Positions 60,614 to 64,000 of a DNA stretch of 64,000 bases are shown here, one piece after another; positions within the stretch are counted from its first letter, which is position 1, and each line of letters begins with the position of its first letter. The position numbers were made by a program, and so were the translations under genes. The notes beneath the pieces were generated by a model, which had not been told where the DNA came from, searched no databases, and was given only the letters and a program-made list of their open reading frames with translations. Origin of the DNA: Streptomyces noursei (lineage in GTDB: Bacteria; Actinomycetota; Actinomycetes; Streptomycetales; Streptomycetaceae); NCBI RefSeq assembly GCF_001646665.1, contig NZ_LWBU01000362.1, positions 1-64,000 on the forward strand. Direction: 5' to 3'.

Positions 60614-61372
60614 TCAGCCTCGCTTTTCGCCCAGCACGTGCAGTTGGGTGGCGACCGACCGGAAGGCGGGCAGCTCGGCCGCCGCGGCCTCCAGCTGGAG
60701 GAGCGCGTCCAGCGCTCCGGGCTCGGTGTCGACCAGCACTCCGGGGACCAGGTCGGCGAAGACGCGCACCCCGTGCACGGCACCGACCTCCACGCCCGCC
60801 GCCTCGACGGCCTCGGTGAGCTGCTCGGCGGTGAAGCGCCGCGGGACCGGGTCTCCCTCGCCCCAGCGGCCGTCCGGGTCGGTCAGGGCGCGGCGGGCCT
60901 CGCTGAAGTGCCCGGCGAGCGCCCTGGCCAGGACCGCGCCGCCGAGTCCGGCCGCGAGGAGGCTGAGCGCGCCGGAGGGCCGCAGCGCCGCCACGGCGTT
61001 GCGCACGCCCTCCGCGGGGTCGTCCACGTACTCCAGGACGCCGTGGCAGAGAACCGCGTCGTACCCGCCGCGCTCGACGACGTCGAACAGGCCGTGGATG
61101 TCGCCCTGCACGCCCTGGACCCGCTCGGCGACGCCGGCCTCGGCGGCGCGGCGCTCCAGTGCGAACAGCGCGTTGGGGCTGGGGTCGACGACCGTGACCC
61201 GGTGGCCCAGCCGCGCGACGGGCACGGCGAAGTTTCCGCTGCCGCCGCCGGTGTCGAGGACGTCCAGGCTGTCCTTGCCGGTCGCCTTGACCCGGCGGTC
61301 GAGGGCGTCCTCCAGGACGTCCCACACCACGGCGGTACGAAGGGAGGCGCGGGGGCGCTGCGGGTCCGACAC
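60614..61372 (-). CDS. SAM-dependent methyltransferase, class I
   Basis: The 252-aa class I methyltransferase has motif I VLDTGGGSGNFAVPVARLG, motif II VTVVDPSP and motif IV YDAVLCHGVLEYVDD. This is a UbiE/Methyltransf_11-type fold. The substrate is not visible from sequence. GTG 61372 is the start. The HEPN gene lies 49 bp upstream on the same strand, so they may be co-transcribed. Confidence 0.93.
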   Translation of the reverse strand: MSDPQRPRASLRTAVVWDVLEDALDRRVKATGKDSLDVLDTGGGSGNFAVPVARLGHRVTVVDPSPNALFALERRAAEAGVAERVQGVQGDIHGLFDVVERGGYDAVLCHGVLEYVDDPAEGVRNAVAALRPSGALSLLAAGLGGAVLARALAGHFSEARRALTDPDGRWGEGDPVPRRFTAEQLTEAVEAAGVEVGAVHGVRVFADLVPGVLVDTEPGALDALLQLEAAAAELPAFRSVATQLHVLGEKRG

Positions 61373-61421: not shown

Positions 61422-61928
61422 TCACGGGGCGTGCCCGGTCCCTCCGCCCGCGGGGTCCGTCCCGGCCTCCGTGGGCCTGGGGCGCGGCAGTACCGGTTCG
61501 GGCACCAACAGCCGCTCCACCAGGCCGAGGAACATGGTCACGTCGCGGATCAGGTCGTCCGCGTCGCGGTGGGTGGCCGCCCCCCGTATGCCCGCTTCCG
61601 CGCGTGCCCGGCGGGAGGCCCCGGCGGCGAACAGGGTGCTCCACTCGGTCAGCTCGGGGGCGACCTCCGGGAGCACGTCCCAGGCGCTGCGTATCTGCTG
61701 CCGTTTGCGCGGTGTGGACTCGGGCCGGCCGCGGACGGCGAGCACGGCGGCCGCGGTCCGGAGGGCGGCGAGGTGGGCGGTGGCGTACCGCTCGTTGGCG
61801 GTCTCGAGGGTGCTCGCCTCTTCCAGGGCCGCGTGCGCCTGGTCGAGAAGGTCGAGGGCGGCGGGCGGCGCCGAGGCACGGCGCAGTACGGGGTGGATGT
61901 CGCTCGCCGCCGTGCGGGTACCGGCCAT
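61422..61928 (-). CDS. SAV_6107-family HEPN-domain protein
   Basis: The 168-aa protein matches, as I recall it, the actinobacterial SAV_6107-type HEPN family: ALDLLDQAHAALEEASTLETANERYATAHLAALRTAAAVLA is an alpha-helical HEPN core. HEPN proteins are often RNases in toxin systems, usually with an R-x4-6-H motif; ERYATAH here has R-x3-H, and I cannot confirm a catalytic site. No obvious antitoxin partner lies next to it. ATG 61928 has GGAGG 6 nt upstream. The C-terminal 25 residues are Pro/Gly/Thr-rich. Confidence 0.86.
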   Translation of the reverse strand: MAGTRTAASDIHPVLRRASAPPAALDLLDQAHAALEEASTLETANERYATAHLAALRTAAAVLAVRGRPESTPRKRQQIRSAWDVLPEVAPELTEWSTLFAAGASRRARAEAGIRGAATHRDADDLIRDVTMFLGLVERLLVPEPVLPRPRPTEAGTDPAGGGTGHAP

Positions 61929-62018
61929 GACGAACCTCCAGTCGTCGGGTGACGGCAATTGCGGCCGTATGGGCCCATCGTGCAGGCCACCACTGACAGT
62001 CGGGCCTGAGCTGTGCTT

Positions 62019-62047
62019 TTGCCTGTACCCACGAAGCGGGGTAGTTT
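62019..62047 (+). promoter_or_regulatory. Promoter of the ABC-like/YhgE unit
   Basis: TTGCCT (62019–62024) and TAGTTT (62042–62047) are spaced by 17 bp. The predicted transcription start near 62054 falls inside a dyad. Confidence 0.6.
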
Positions 62048-62051
62048 TTGA

Positions 62052-62065
62052 ACTGACTGGTCAGT
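62052..62065. promoter_or_regulatory. TetR-like operator dyad
   Basis: ACTGAC and GTCAGT form a 6-bp inverted repeat around TG, right at the predicted transcription start. The short spacing and TGAC half-sites resemble TetR-family operators. No regulator gene is in view; one may lie beyond 64000. Confidence 0.6.
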
Positions 62066-62083
62066 GCAAAGGAATGGGGGCTC

Positions 62084-63094
62084 GTGGACAGCCAGGACGA
62101 CGACCCGGTGATCCCGGACGAGCGGGAGACGGACGCCGCCGCGGGCGGAAGCGCGAAGGACGGCCCCGCGGCCGTCACCGGCACCGGCGGCACCGACACC
62201 GCGTCCGGTGGCGACACCGGCGCCGGGGACGGGGAGAACGGCGGCACCGGTGACGGGGAGAACGGCGGCGCCGGCGAGGAACGGACTCCGGCGCCGGGCG
62301 ACGACCGGCGGCAACCGCACGGGGCGGCGCTGGTCGCCGAGGGCTTCGGCATGAAGGGACCGCGCGGCTGGTCCTTCCGCGGCGTGGCGGTGGACGCCCG
62401 CCCCGGCTCACTGGTGACGATCGAGGGGCCGTCCGGCTCCGGGCGCACCTGCCTGCTGCTCGCGCTGACCGGCCGAATGCGTCCCACCGAGGGCCGCGCG
62501 GAGGTCGGCGGGCTGGCGCTGCCGCGCAGGATGGCCGCCGTACGCCGGATCAGCGCGCTCGGCCCGGTGCCAGGGGTAAGTGACCTCGACCCCGCCCTGA
62601 CGGTCGCCGAGCACCTGCGCGAGCGTGCCCTGCTGCAGCGCCGGTTCGACGGCTCGCCACTGGCCCTGCTGCGCCCGCGCCGCGAACGCGCCGCCGCGTC
62701 CCGCGCCCGCGTCGAGGCGGCCCTGAGCGCCGCCGGACTCGACCTGGACGCCCTGCCCAAGGCGGGCCGCACCTCCGTGCGGGACCTGGAGCGGCTGGAG
62801 GCCCTGCGCCTGTCGATCGCCCTCGCGCTGATCGGCGAACCGCGCCTGCTGGCCATAGACGACGCGGACCTCAAGCTCTCCGACACCGACCGCGCCGAGG
62901 CCTGGGCCCTGCTCCGGTCGATCGCCGACGGCGGCACGACCGTGCTGGCCGTGTGCAGCGAGGCACCCGGCGGCACCGTCGCCATCCGCACCACCGCGAG
63001 CGAGACGGAAACCGGGACCGGGACCGGAACCGCGGACGAGACCGACACCGAGAAGGGGGCAGCCGATGCGCTCGCCGAAACTGGCCGCGCTTGA
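62084..63094 (+). CDS. ABC-like ATPase domain protein with degenerate nucleotide-binding motifs
   Basis: The 336-aa protein has an acidic Gly/Thr/Asp-rich N-terminus of about 80 residues and then an ABC ATPase fold. The Walker A reads GPSGSGRT (115–122): the invariant Lys is Arg. The signature LSGGQ is absent (SVRDLERLE at about 231–239). The Walker B reads LLAIDDAD (255–262): the catalytic Glu is missing. It is probably a pseudo-ATPase or a very divergent ABC subunit. The tail is Thr/Glu-rich. GTG 62084 follows the promoter and operator. It overlaps the YhgE gene by 29 bp. Confidence 0.88.
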   Translation: MDSQDDDPVIPDERETDAAAGGSAKDGPAAVTGTGGTDTASGGDTGAGDGENGGTGDGENGGAGEERTPAPGDDRRQPHGAALVAEGFGMKGPRGWSFRGVAVDARPGSLVTIEGPSGSGRTCLLLALTGRMRPTEGRAEVGGLALPRRMAAVRRISALGPVPGVSDLDPALTVAEHLRERALLQRRFDGSPLALLRPRRERAAASRARVEAALSAAGLDLDALPKAGRTSVRDLERLEALRLSIALALIGEPRLLAIDDADLKLSDTDRAEAWALLRSIADGGTTVLAVCSEAPGGTVAIRTTASETETGTGTGTADETDTEKGAADALAETGRA

Positions 63095-64000
63095 GCTGAA
63101 GCGGTTCGGCAGGGGCAAGCTGCCGCGCGCCGCGCTCGTGGCGATCCTGCTGCTGCCGCTGCTGTACGGCGCGCTGTACCTGTGGTCCTTCTGGGACCCG
63201 TACGGCAGGCTCGAGAAGCTTCCCGTCGCCCTGGTCAACGAGGACAAGGGCGCCACCGCGGACGGCAAGAAGATCACCGCGGGCGCCGACCTCGCCAGGA
63301 ACCTGCGCGAGAGCAAGGTCTTCGAGTGGCACGAGGTGAGCGACGCCCAGGCCCGCGAGGGTGTGGAGAACGGTACGTACTACCTGTCGCTGACCATGCC
63401 GCGCGACCTCAGCGAGCGCATCGCCTCCAGCTCGGGCGACACGCCCGAGACGGGCGCCCTCCAGGTGCGTACCAACGACGCCAACAACTACATCGTGGGC
63501 CAGATATCGCGGACGGTGTTCGCCGAGGTCCGCACGGCCGCCTCCACCAAGTCGTCCCGGTCGTTCCTGGACAAGATCTTCATCAAGTTCTCCGACCTCC
63601 ACGACGCCACCGAGAAGGCGGCCAAGGGGGCCGACGAGCTCAAGAGCGGGGCCGCGAAGGCCAAGAAGGGCTCCAAGGACCTCTCCGACGGTCTGACCGA
63701 CGCCAAGAAGGGCAGTGGTGAGCTGGCCGGGGGCCTGAAGAAGCTCGACTCCGGCGCGGCCGACCTGGAGACGGGCGCCCGGCAGGTCGCCGGCGGCACC
63801 CAGGTGCTCGCCGACAAGGTCAACGGCGTGGCCGCCGACGTACGTCCGTACCTCAAGGACAACGGGAAGAAAATCGGCGACTCCGCGCGCCTGGTCTCGG
63901 ACTTCTCCCAGGGCATGCGCAACAGCCTCGACCTCGTGGTGAAGACCGGGCCCACCCTGCGGTCCGGCGCGCACGTGGCGGCCGACGAGATCGCCGCCAT
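63066..64000 (+). CDS. YhgE/Pip-family membrane protein (partial, cut by window end)
   Basis: The gene starts at ATG 63066 (MRSPKLAALELKRF) and runs past the end of the window. The first membrane segment is about residues 22–45, then an extracytoplasmic domain (PVALVNEDKGATADGKK, VFEWHEVS, YYLSLTMPRDLSERI). A long repeated region (KSGAAKAKKGSKDL, SDGLTDAKKGSGEL and similar) of YhgE/Pip type follows. Such proteins are linked to phage infection, export or type VII-like secretion. A C-terminal membrane part is expected beyond the edge. Confidence 0.9.
   Translation, partial: MRSPKLAALELKRFGRGKLPRAALVAILLLPLLYGALYLWSFWDPYGRLEKLPVALVNEDKGATADGKKITAGADLARNLRESKVFEWHEVSDAQAREGVENGTYYLSLTMPRDLSERIASSSGDTPETGALQVRTNDANNYIVGQISRTVFAEVRTAASTKSSRSFLDKIFIKFSDLHDATEKAAKGADELKSGAAKAKKGSKDLSDGLTDAKKGSGELAGGLKKLDSGAADLETGARQVAGGTQVLADKVNGVAADVRPYLKDNGKKIGDSARLVSDFSQGMRNSLDLVVKTGPTLRSGAHVAADEIAA

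Follow-up and report, generated by a model that had tools for sequence, protein, structure and literature searches.

The window, a 64,000-nucleotide stretch of Streptomyces noursei DNA, ends in an operon that we interpret, with a probability of roughly 0.6, as the remains of a former ABC exporter. In this interpretation an ABC-like protein stripped of its residues for ATP hydrolysis (here called pseudo-NBD) would have been retained as a scaffold or regulatory subunit of the membrane protein YhgE/Pip. Judged from alignments, the data say that an actinobacterial NBD family has lost hydrolysis, yet has been kept beside one membrane protein and has acquired invariant residues of its own. Within the open-access literature we found no description of an ABC-like partner of YhgE/Pip.

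Layout of the operon and pairing of its genes

The window stops within a three-gene operon encoding the pseudo-NBD, YhgE/Pip and a TetR protein (Table 1), and the complete YhgE/Pip gene was located in the fetched locus of the same genome (L008, 3067-5160). Conservation of the operon was assessed in the best 80 of at least 587 relatives in named genomes, all 80 of them from Streptomyces, to which the window protein was added where 81 sequences are given. The initial annotation had described an ABC-like coding sequence overlapping the start of YhgE/Pip by 29 bp. This overlap was found, and the two genes form an operon in which it is conserved (29 bp in 77/80 Streptomyces loci and 14 bp in 3/80). 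With three genes mapped per locus, the operon was intact, TetR gene included, in 80/80 loci. The TetR gene guessed to lie beyond position 64,000 is present on the contig, and the active ABC partner suspected beside the operon did not appear: no second NBD gene was seen in the 80 mapped Streptomyces operons, nor an ABC partner among the open frames listed to about 10 kb downstream in the own genome.

Table 1. Positions of the features discussed (window numbering unless a contig or locus is named).
Feature	Position	Strand	Remarks
Weak promoter-like pair	TTGCCT 62019-62024, TAGTTT 62042-62047	+	Spacer 17 nt; putative
Predicted operator, inverted repeat of 11+11 nt	62047-62057 / 62060-62070		Core ACTGACNNGTCAGT at 62052-62065
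Pseudo-NBD gene (ABC-like protein)	62084-63094	+	336 aa, GTG start; from ORF, Pfam, alignment and model
Acidic low-complexity N-terminal extension	62093-62311	+	Not conserved
Degenerate Walker A, GPSGSGRT	62426-62449	+	Lys to Arg; Arg121 codon 62444-62446
G130-R131-M132, family-diagnostic motif after Walker A	62471-62479	+	
ABC signature position	62786-62800	+	LERLE for LSGGQ; alignment to ABCA4
Walker B-like LLAIDD	62846-62863	+	Position of catalytic Glu is Asp260
Position of H-loop His	62957-62959	+	Ser292; alignment
YhgE/Pip gene	63066-64000 in window; ends at contig 65159	+	697 aa, first 311 aa inside window; ATG 63066
TetR gene	contig 65171-65779		Beyond window edge; 11 bp after YhgE/Pip; last gene of operon
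MmpL-pseudo-NBD fusion	L264 1792-5202	-	
MmpL-pseudo-NBD fusion	L265 1781-4888	-	
MmpL-pseudo-NBD fusion	L266 3611-7468		
MmpL-pseudo-NBD fusion	L267 4010-7468		
MmpL-pseudo-NBD fusion	L268 4016-7468		
MmpL-pseudo-NBD fusion	L269 1336-4152	-	

Outside the genus, 59 YhgE/Pip loci were collected, 47 of them from 45 of the 75 Pip-matching genomes, chosen mostly as Pip matches over the cut-off, and 12 from other genera of the family. An ABC-like gene lies directly upstream of YhgE/Pip and on the same strand in 57/59 of these loci (55 detected with a profile of Streptomyces sequences, and two with a wider profile), and at L133 and L168 neither profile detected such a partner. Among 150 genomes of the genus both genes were found in 124 and both went undetected in 26 at the thresholds used; counted by gene, 123 genomes gave an ABC-like match and 124 gave YhgE/Pip, the difference being G010, whose partner is diverged. 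The distance matrices of the two proteins are correlated (r 0.84, 55 loci, 0/500 permutations), which is explained by co-inheritance, albeit shared descent alone also yields such a correlation.

A gene for a SAV_6107-like HEPN protein (61422-61931, minus strand; Pfam, 127 bits) is divergent from the operon, and a CmoM-like methyltransferase is found beyond it at 60614-61372. At L135 (1396-8572) there are tandem pairs of pseudo-NBD and YhgE/Pip with a TetR gene between them, and at the Streptomyces locus L250 (5734-9321) no stop codon ends the YhgE/Pip frame before it enters the TetR region, possibly owing to a frameshift or a fusion.

Catalytic motifs and ancestry of the pseudo-NBD

The ABC-like protein matches the Pfam family ABC_tran (PF00005) with 47.8 bits (cut-off 25), and it has no close paralogue in its own genome, where the score falls from 691 to 47 bits at the next of 47 matches. 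The initial annotation had reported Arg for the Walker A Lys, no LSGGQ and no catalytic Glu, all of which was confirmed by alignment, and the Q-loop Gln and H-loop His, which it had not listed, are also missing at the aligned positions. Among the 81 Streptomyces proteins Arg121, Thr122, Asp259 and Asp260 are each found in 81/81, the H-loop position has His in 0/81, and Gln is present at position 161 in 11/81. The Walker A Arg is also common to 57 further loci of the same bacterial family, and the non-standard motifs, being fixed in the 81 Streptomyces proteins and in these loci, can be attributed neither to a local error nor to recent decay. A sequencing error behind the Arg is ruled out by its occurrence in 81/81 proteins, which together with the exact operator in 80/80 loci (see below) excludes chance as well. 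The strict retention of the Arg and the double Asp in Streptomyces would be compatible with a possible nucleotide-related role of some kind.

The acidic N-terminus is real in the window protein (19 D/E and 5 K/R in 76 residues), but it could not be upheld as a conserved feature: more than 100 residues precede Walker A in only 3/81 proteins, the window protein included, and 76/81 have only 37-63. Median dN/dS values over pairs (Nei-Gojobori) were 0.38 for the pseudo-NBD with its variable tail included, 0.36 for YhgE/Pip and 0.19 for TetR.

To follow the motifs in relatives drawn from the whole class, 64 pseudo-NBDs were aligned with seven canonical NBDs. The two halves of a broken copy at L129, L008 (a duplicate of the window) and L077 (a duplicate of L172) were left out of this set. 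Manual additions were L132, L140, L158 and the second copy at L129; of these, L132 and L158 had been detected solely by the wider profile built from other relatives. An LSGGQ-like motif is present in 0/64 pseudo-NBDs compared with 5/7 canonical controls, and Glu at position 260 in 0/64 compared with 7/7. Neither His at position 292 nor Gln at position 164 is found in any of the 64, the near-misses being a His one residue later in 3/64 and a Gln within three residues in 2/64. The position of the Walker A Lys is occupied by Arg in 40/64 and by Lys, in an intact loop, in 8/64, and the P-loop is lost in the remaining 16/64 (14 with neither Lys nor Arg, and two with Arg but without the preceding Gly). 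The Walker B Asp is kept in 48/64. No Pfam ABC_tran match was obtained for three of three eroded relatives so tested, and the pseudo-NBD of L170/L269 matches the Streptomyces profile weakly (E 1.3e-5) and has no Pfam ABC_tran match.

Other residues have become fixed instead: R131 and G137 in 64/64, E180 in 60/64, D262 in 57/64 and W274 in 48/64. R131 is the center of a GRM motif, with G130 in 62/64 and M132 in 50/64, and GR is found there in 0/7 canonical NBDs. Judged from the alignment, the invariant R131, G137 and E180 are unrelated to catalysis. In the phylogenetic tree all 64 pseudo-NBDs are placed on one side of a branch that separates them from the seven canonical NBDs (SH-aLRT 100), a single-clade result that a wider outgroup could alter, as the seven all come from one genome.

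At L129, where the operon is present in two tandem copies, the ABC-like gene of the first copy is split over two frames (1683-2600 and 1795-2493) by a frameshift or sequencing error, and the second copy is intact.

The view that the ABC fold is kept agrees with a confident NBD model (pLDDT 90.5, pTM 0.88) that aligns to 4yer with a Z score of 21.9 (rmsd 2.5, 201 aligned). Among solved structures, the NBDs of ABCA4 and ABCA3 come closest in sequence. YhgE/Pip matches the N-terminal model TIGR03061 with 196.4 bits (cut-off 96.15) as the only protein of its genome, Pfam ABC2_membrane_3 with an E value of 5e-9, and the EsaA model weakly. Its structural model shows a single helix at the N-terminus, a small domain of mixed type, an extended coiled part and a C-terminal group of helices, but is too poor for a fold search (pTM 0.35), and its sequence matches in the PDB were discarded as coiled-coil resemblances only. 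The relation to ABC-2 proteins therefore rests on the ABC2_membrane_3 match and on the inclusion of putative ABC-2 transporters among PIP-family homologues in PMC3924187. Together with the likeness to the ABCA4 and ABCA3 NBDs, the ABC2_membrane_3 match makes both halves of the system point to an exporter of the ABC-2/ABCA kind as the probable ancestor. ABCA/DrrA-like NBDs with their ABC-2 subunits resemble the present pair in the NBD fold and in having the NBD gene before the membrane gene, but differ in that the Walker A Lys, Q-loop Gln, LSGGQ, catalytic Glu and H-loop His are all absent here at the aligned positions.

An alternative to a scaffold is a switch that binds nucleotide without hydrolyzing it, the nucleotide closing a pseudo-NBD dimer and gating YhgE/Pip. 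The P-loops with Arg or Lys (48/64) and the equally frequent Walker B Asp speak for such a switch, but we regard it as unlikely, given that the P-loop is lost in 16/64 and that the signature, which clamps the second face of the nucleotide, is absent from 64/64.

It is quite improbable that the pseudo-NBD is the degenerate half of a heterodimer with its active NBD encoded elsewhere. Exporters of which only one nucleotide site is degenerate do exist, TM287/288, TAP and CFTR among them, and there, too, the catalytic residues of an ABC subunit are impaired (PMC7756269). At least 46 other ABC-like matches are present in the own genome, and at L165 (195-3770, minus strand) an ABC-exporter-like frame of 1192 aa directly follows the TetR gene, the only such neighbor seen. 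However, one of the two sites remains active in those exporters, whereas here the search revealed no active NBD alongside the operon: an intact-site partner is not co-encoded in any of the 80 mapped three-gene operons. Moreover, since Walker A, the catalytic Glu and the signature are all changed, both composite sites of such a heterodimer would be hit.

A non-canonical but active nucleotide hydrolase, with Arg121 serving for Lys and Asp260 for Glu, is very improbable. The invariance of these residues, of Thr122 and of Asp259 in Streptomyces, where the glycine-rich loop is intact, would suit such an enzyme, but the signature, Q-loop and H-loop residues are gone too, and hydrolysis cannot be the common function when 16/64 relatives encoded in the corresponding gene position are without any P-loop. 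A decaying gene or annotation artefact without function is hardly credible, because dN/dS is well below 1 and similar to that of YhgE/Pip, 80/80 operons are intact and non-catalytic residues are invariant class-wide, the split copy at L129 and the 26/150 genus genomes in which the pair was undetected notwithstanding.

Predicted operator and proposed mechanism

The dyad ACTGACTGGTCAGT, which the initial annotation had placed on the predicted start site, is present at 62052-62065 and widens to an inverted repeat of 11+11 nt. Its placement on the start site was a guess, and a consensus scan gave no strict sigma-70 promoter match. The weak -35/-10 pair listed in Table 1 would place the start of transcription at the dyad, and its T-rich -35 area and the TA..TT before the dyad are partly conserved in the 81 upstream regions. 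A terminator-like hairpin with a T run (62026-62043), which may be due to chance, overlaps the pair; one was found compared with 0.1 expected in shuffles.

The 14-bp core is exact in 80/80 Streptomyces loci, where only the central two bases vary, and the conserved footprint around it reads TTTG.ACTGACYRGTCAGT.CAAA. The 14-mer pattern is found at one place in the own 7.64 Mb genome, and its reversed control at none. Outside the genus (61 YhgE/Pip genes) the exact core accompanies 22/24 genes with this TetR downstream versus 1/37 without it (Fisher 2.7e-13), and of the two exceptions, one carries a core that differs by a single mismatch. From this linkage the dyad is very probably the operator of the downstream TetR. 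Both marks of an autoregulated TetR operon, a TetR gene within the operon and a predicted palindromic operator at the putative promoter, are seen in the sequence.

In the mechanism that we propose, YhgE/Pip would be a six-helix membrane subunit of the ABC-2 type with a large external coiled domain, and the product of the first gene its former ATPase subunit, which has kept the ABC fold after the residues for ATP hydrolysis were gone and would have been under selection without them through many speciations. We infer a physical complex in which the pseudo-NBD most likely occupies the former NBD-TMD interface beneath YhgE/Pip, where it would both hold and gate the membrane protein in the role of an obligate scaffold or regulatory subunit. 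The forms in which a P-loop survives, with either Arg or Lys, perhaps still sense nucleotide. Any movement of substrate would be powered otherwise than by ATP hydrolysis in the pseudo-NBD. TetR would repress its own operon from the single operator, and release would probably be brought about by a lipophilic or envelope-active ligand.

MmpL fusions and related systems

At six loci (L264-L269) the pseudo-NBD forms the C-terminal part of a single open frame with an MmpL-type (RND) transporter, and this frame precedes and overlaps YhgE/Pip. Six of the 59 loci outside the genus have such a fusion; no MmpL frame was found in the window or in the Streptomyces loci, and the MmpL genes of the own genome sit on other contigs. 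In the three fusions searched against Pfam, MMPL was found in 3/3 and ABC_tran in 2/3. The Walker A Lys is kept in 5/6 fusions and the loop is lost in the sixth. The fusion suggests that in some lineages the pseudo-NBD serves as an adaptor to a pump driven by protons, and in these relatives it would link YhgE/Pip to another transporter. SbmA/BacA peptide transporters have the membrane fold of an ABC exporter and work without ATP hydrolysis; they are not known to possess any NBD, whereas the present system has retained one that is dead.

YhgE/Pip proteins serve as phage receptors and are related to components of type VII secretion, and those of Bacillota share the TIGR03061 N-terminal domain with the present protein, as do EsaA/YueB. 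Six predicted TM helices are described for the PIP of E. faecalis (PMC4999554), and YueB is reported to be required for both SPP1 infection and YukE secretion (PMC3701619). The pseudo-NBD partner, the MmpL fusion and the one-target TetR switch offer direct handles on the activity of YhgE/Pip. A switchable gene set of this kind in Streptomyces and many other actinobacteria suggests that an ATP-driven pump may have evolved away from the usual use of ATP. It is conceivable, if somewhat doubtful, that the actinobacterial YhgE/Pip systems as a whole are ABC exporters leaving ATP, with an NBD turned adaptor (from Lys through Arg to no P-loop) and in some cases welded to MmpL, so that an RND transporter would operate a membrane subunit of the ABC type. 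The Bacillota proteins without an NBD (YhgE/Pip, phage receptors and EsaA/YueB) would then belong to the same lineage, after complete loss of the NBD.

The pairing was also followed on plasmids, in a sample of 10 of 55 plasmid records. A degenerate partner accompanies Pip at 4/4 actinobacterial loci (Tsukamurella, Rhodococcus and two Arthrobacter), whereas no ABC-like gene lies beside Pip at any of the six loci from Bacillota/Deinococcota. The four partners are annotated as hypothetical, ATP-binding cassette protein, ABC ATP-binding protein and not at all, and the "ATP-binding" label on two of them steers experimenters to ATP-driven efflux.

A second, shorter Pip-like family with open frames of about 430-580 aa was observed in the same bacterial family (L270-L283). 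No ABC-like gene lies beside these short genes (0/14 loci), and at 2/14 loci a canonical ABC gene is found further off, on the opposite strand.
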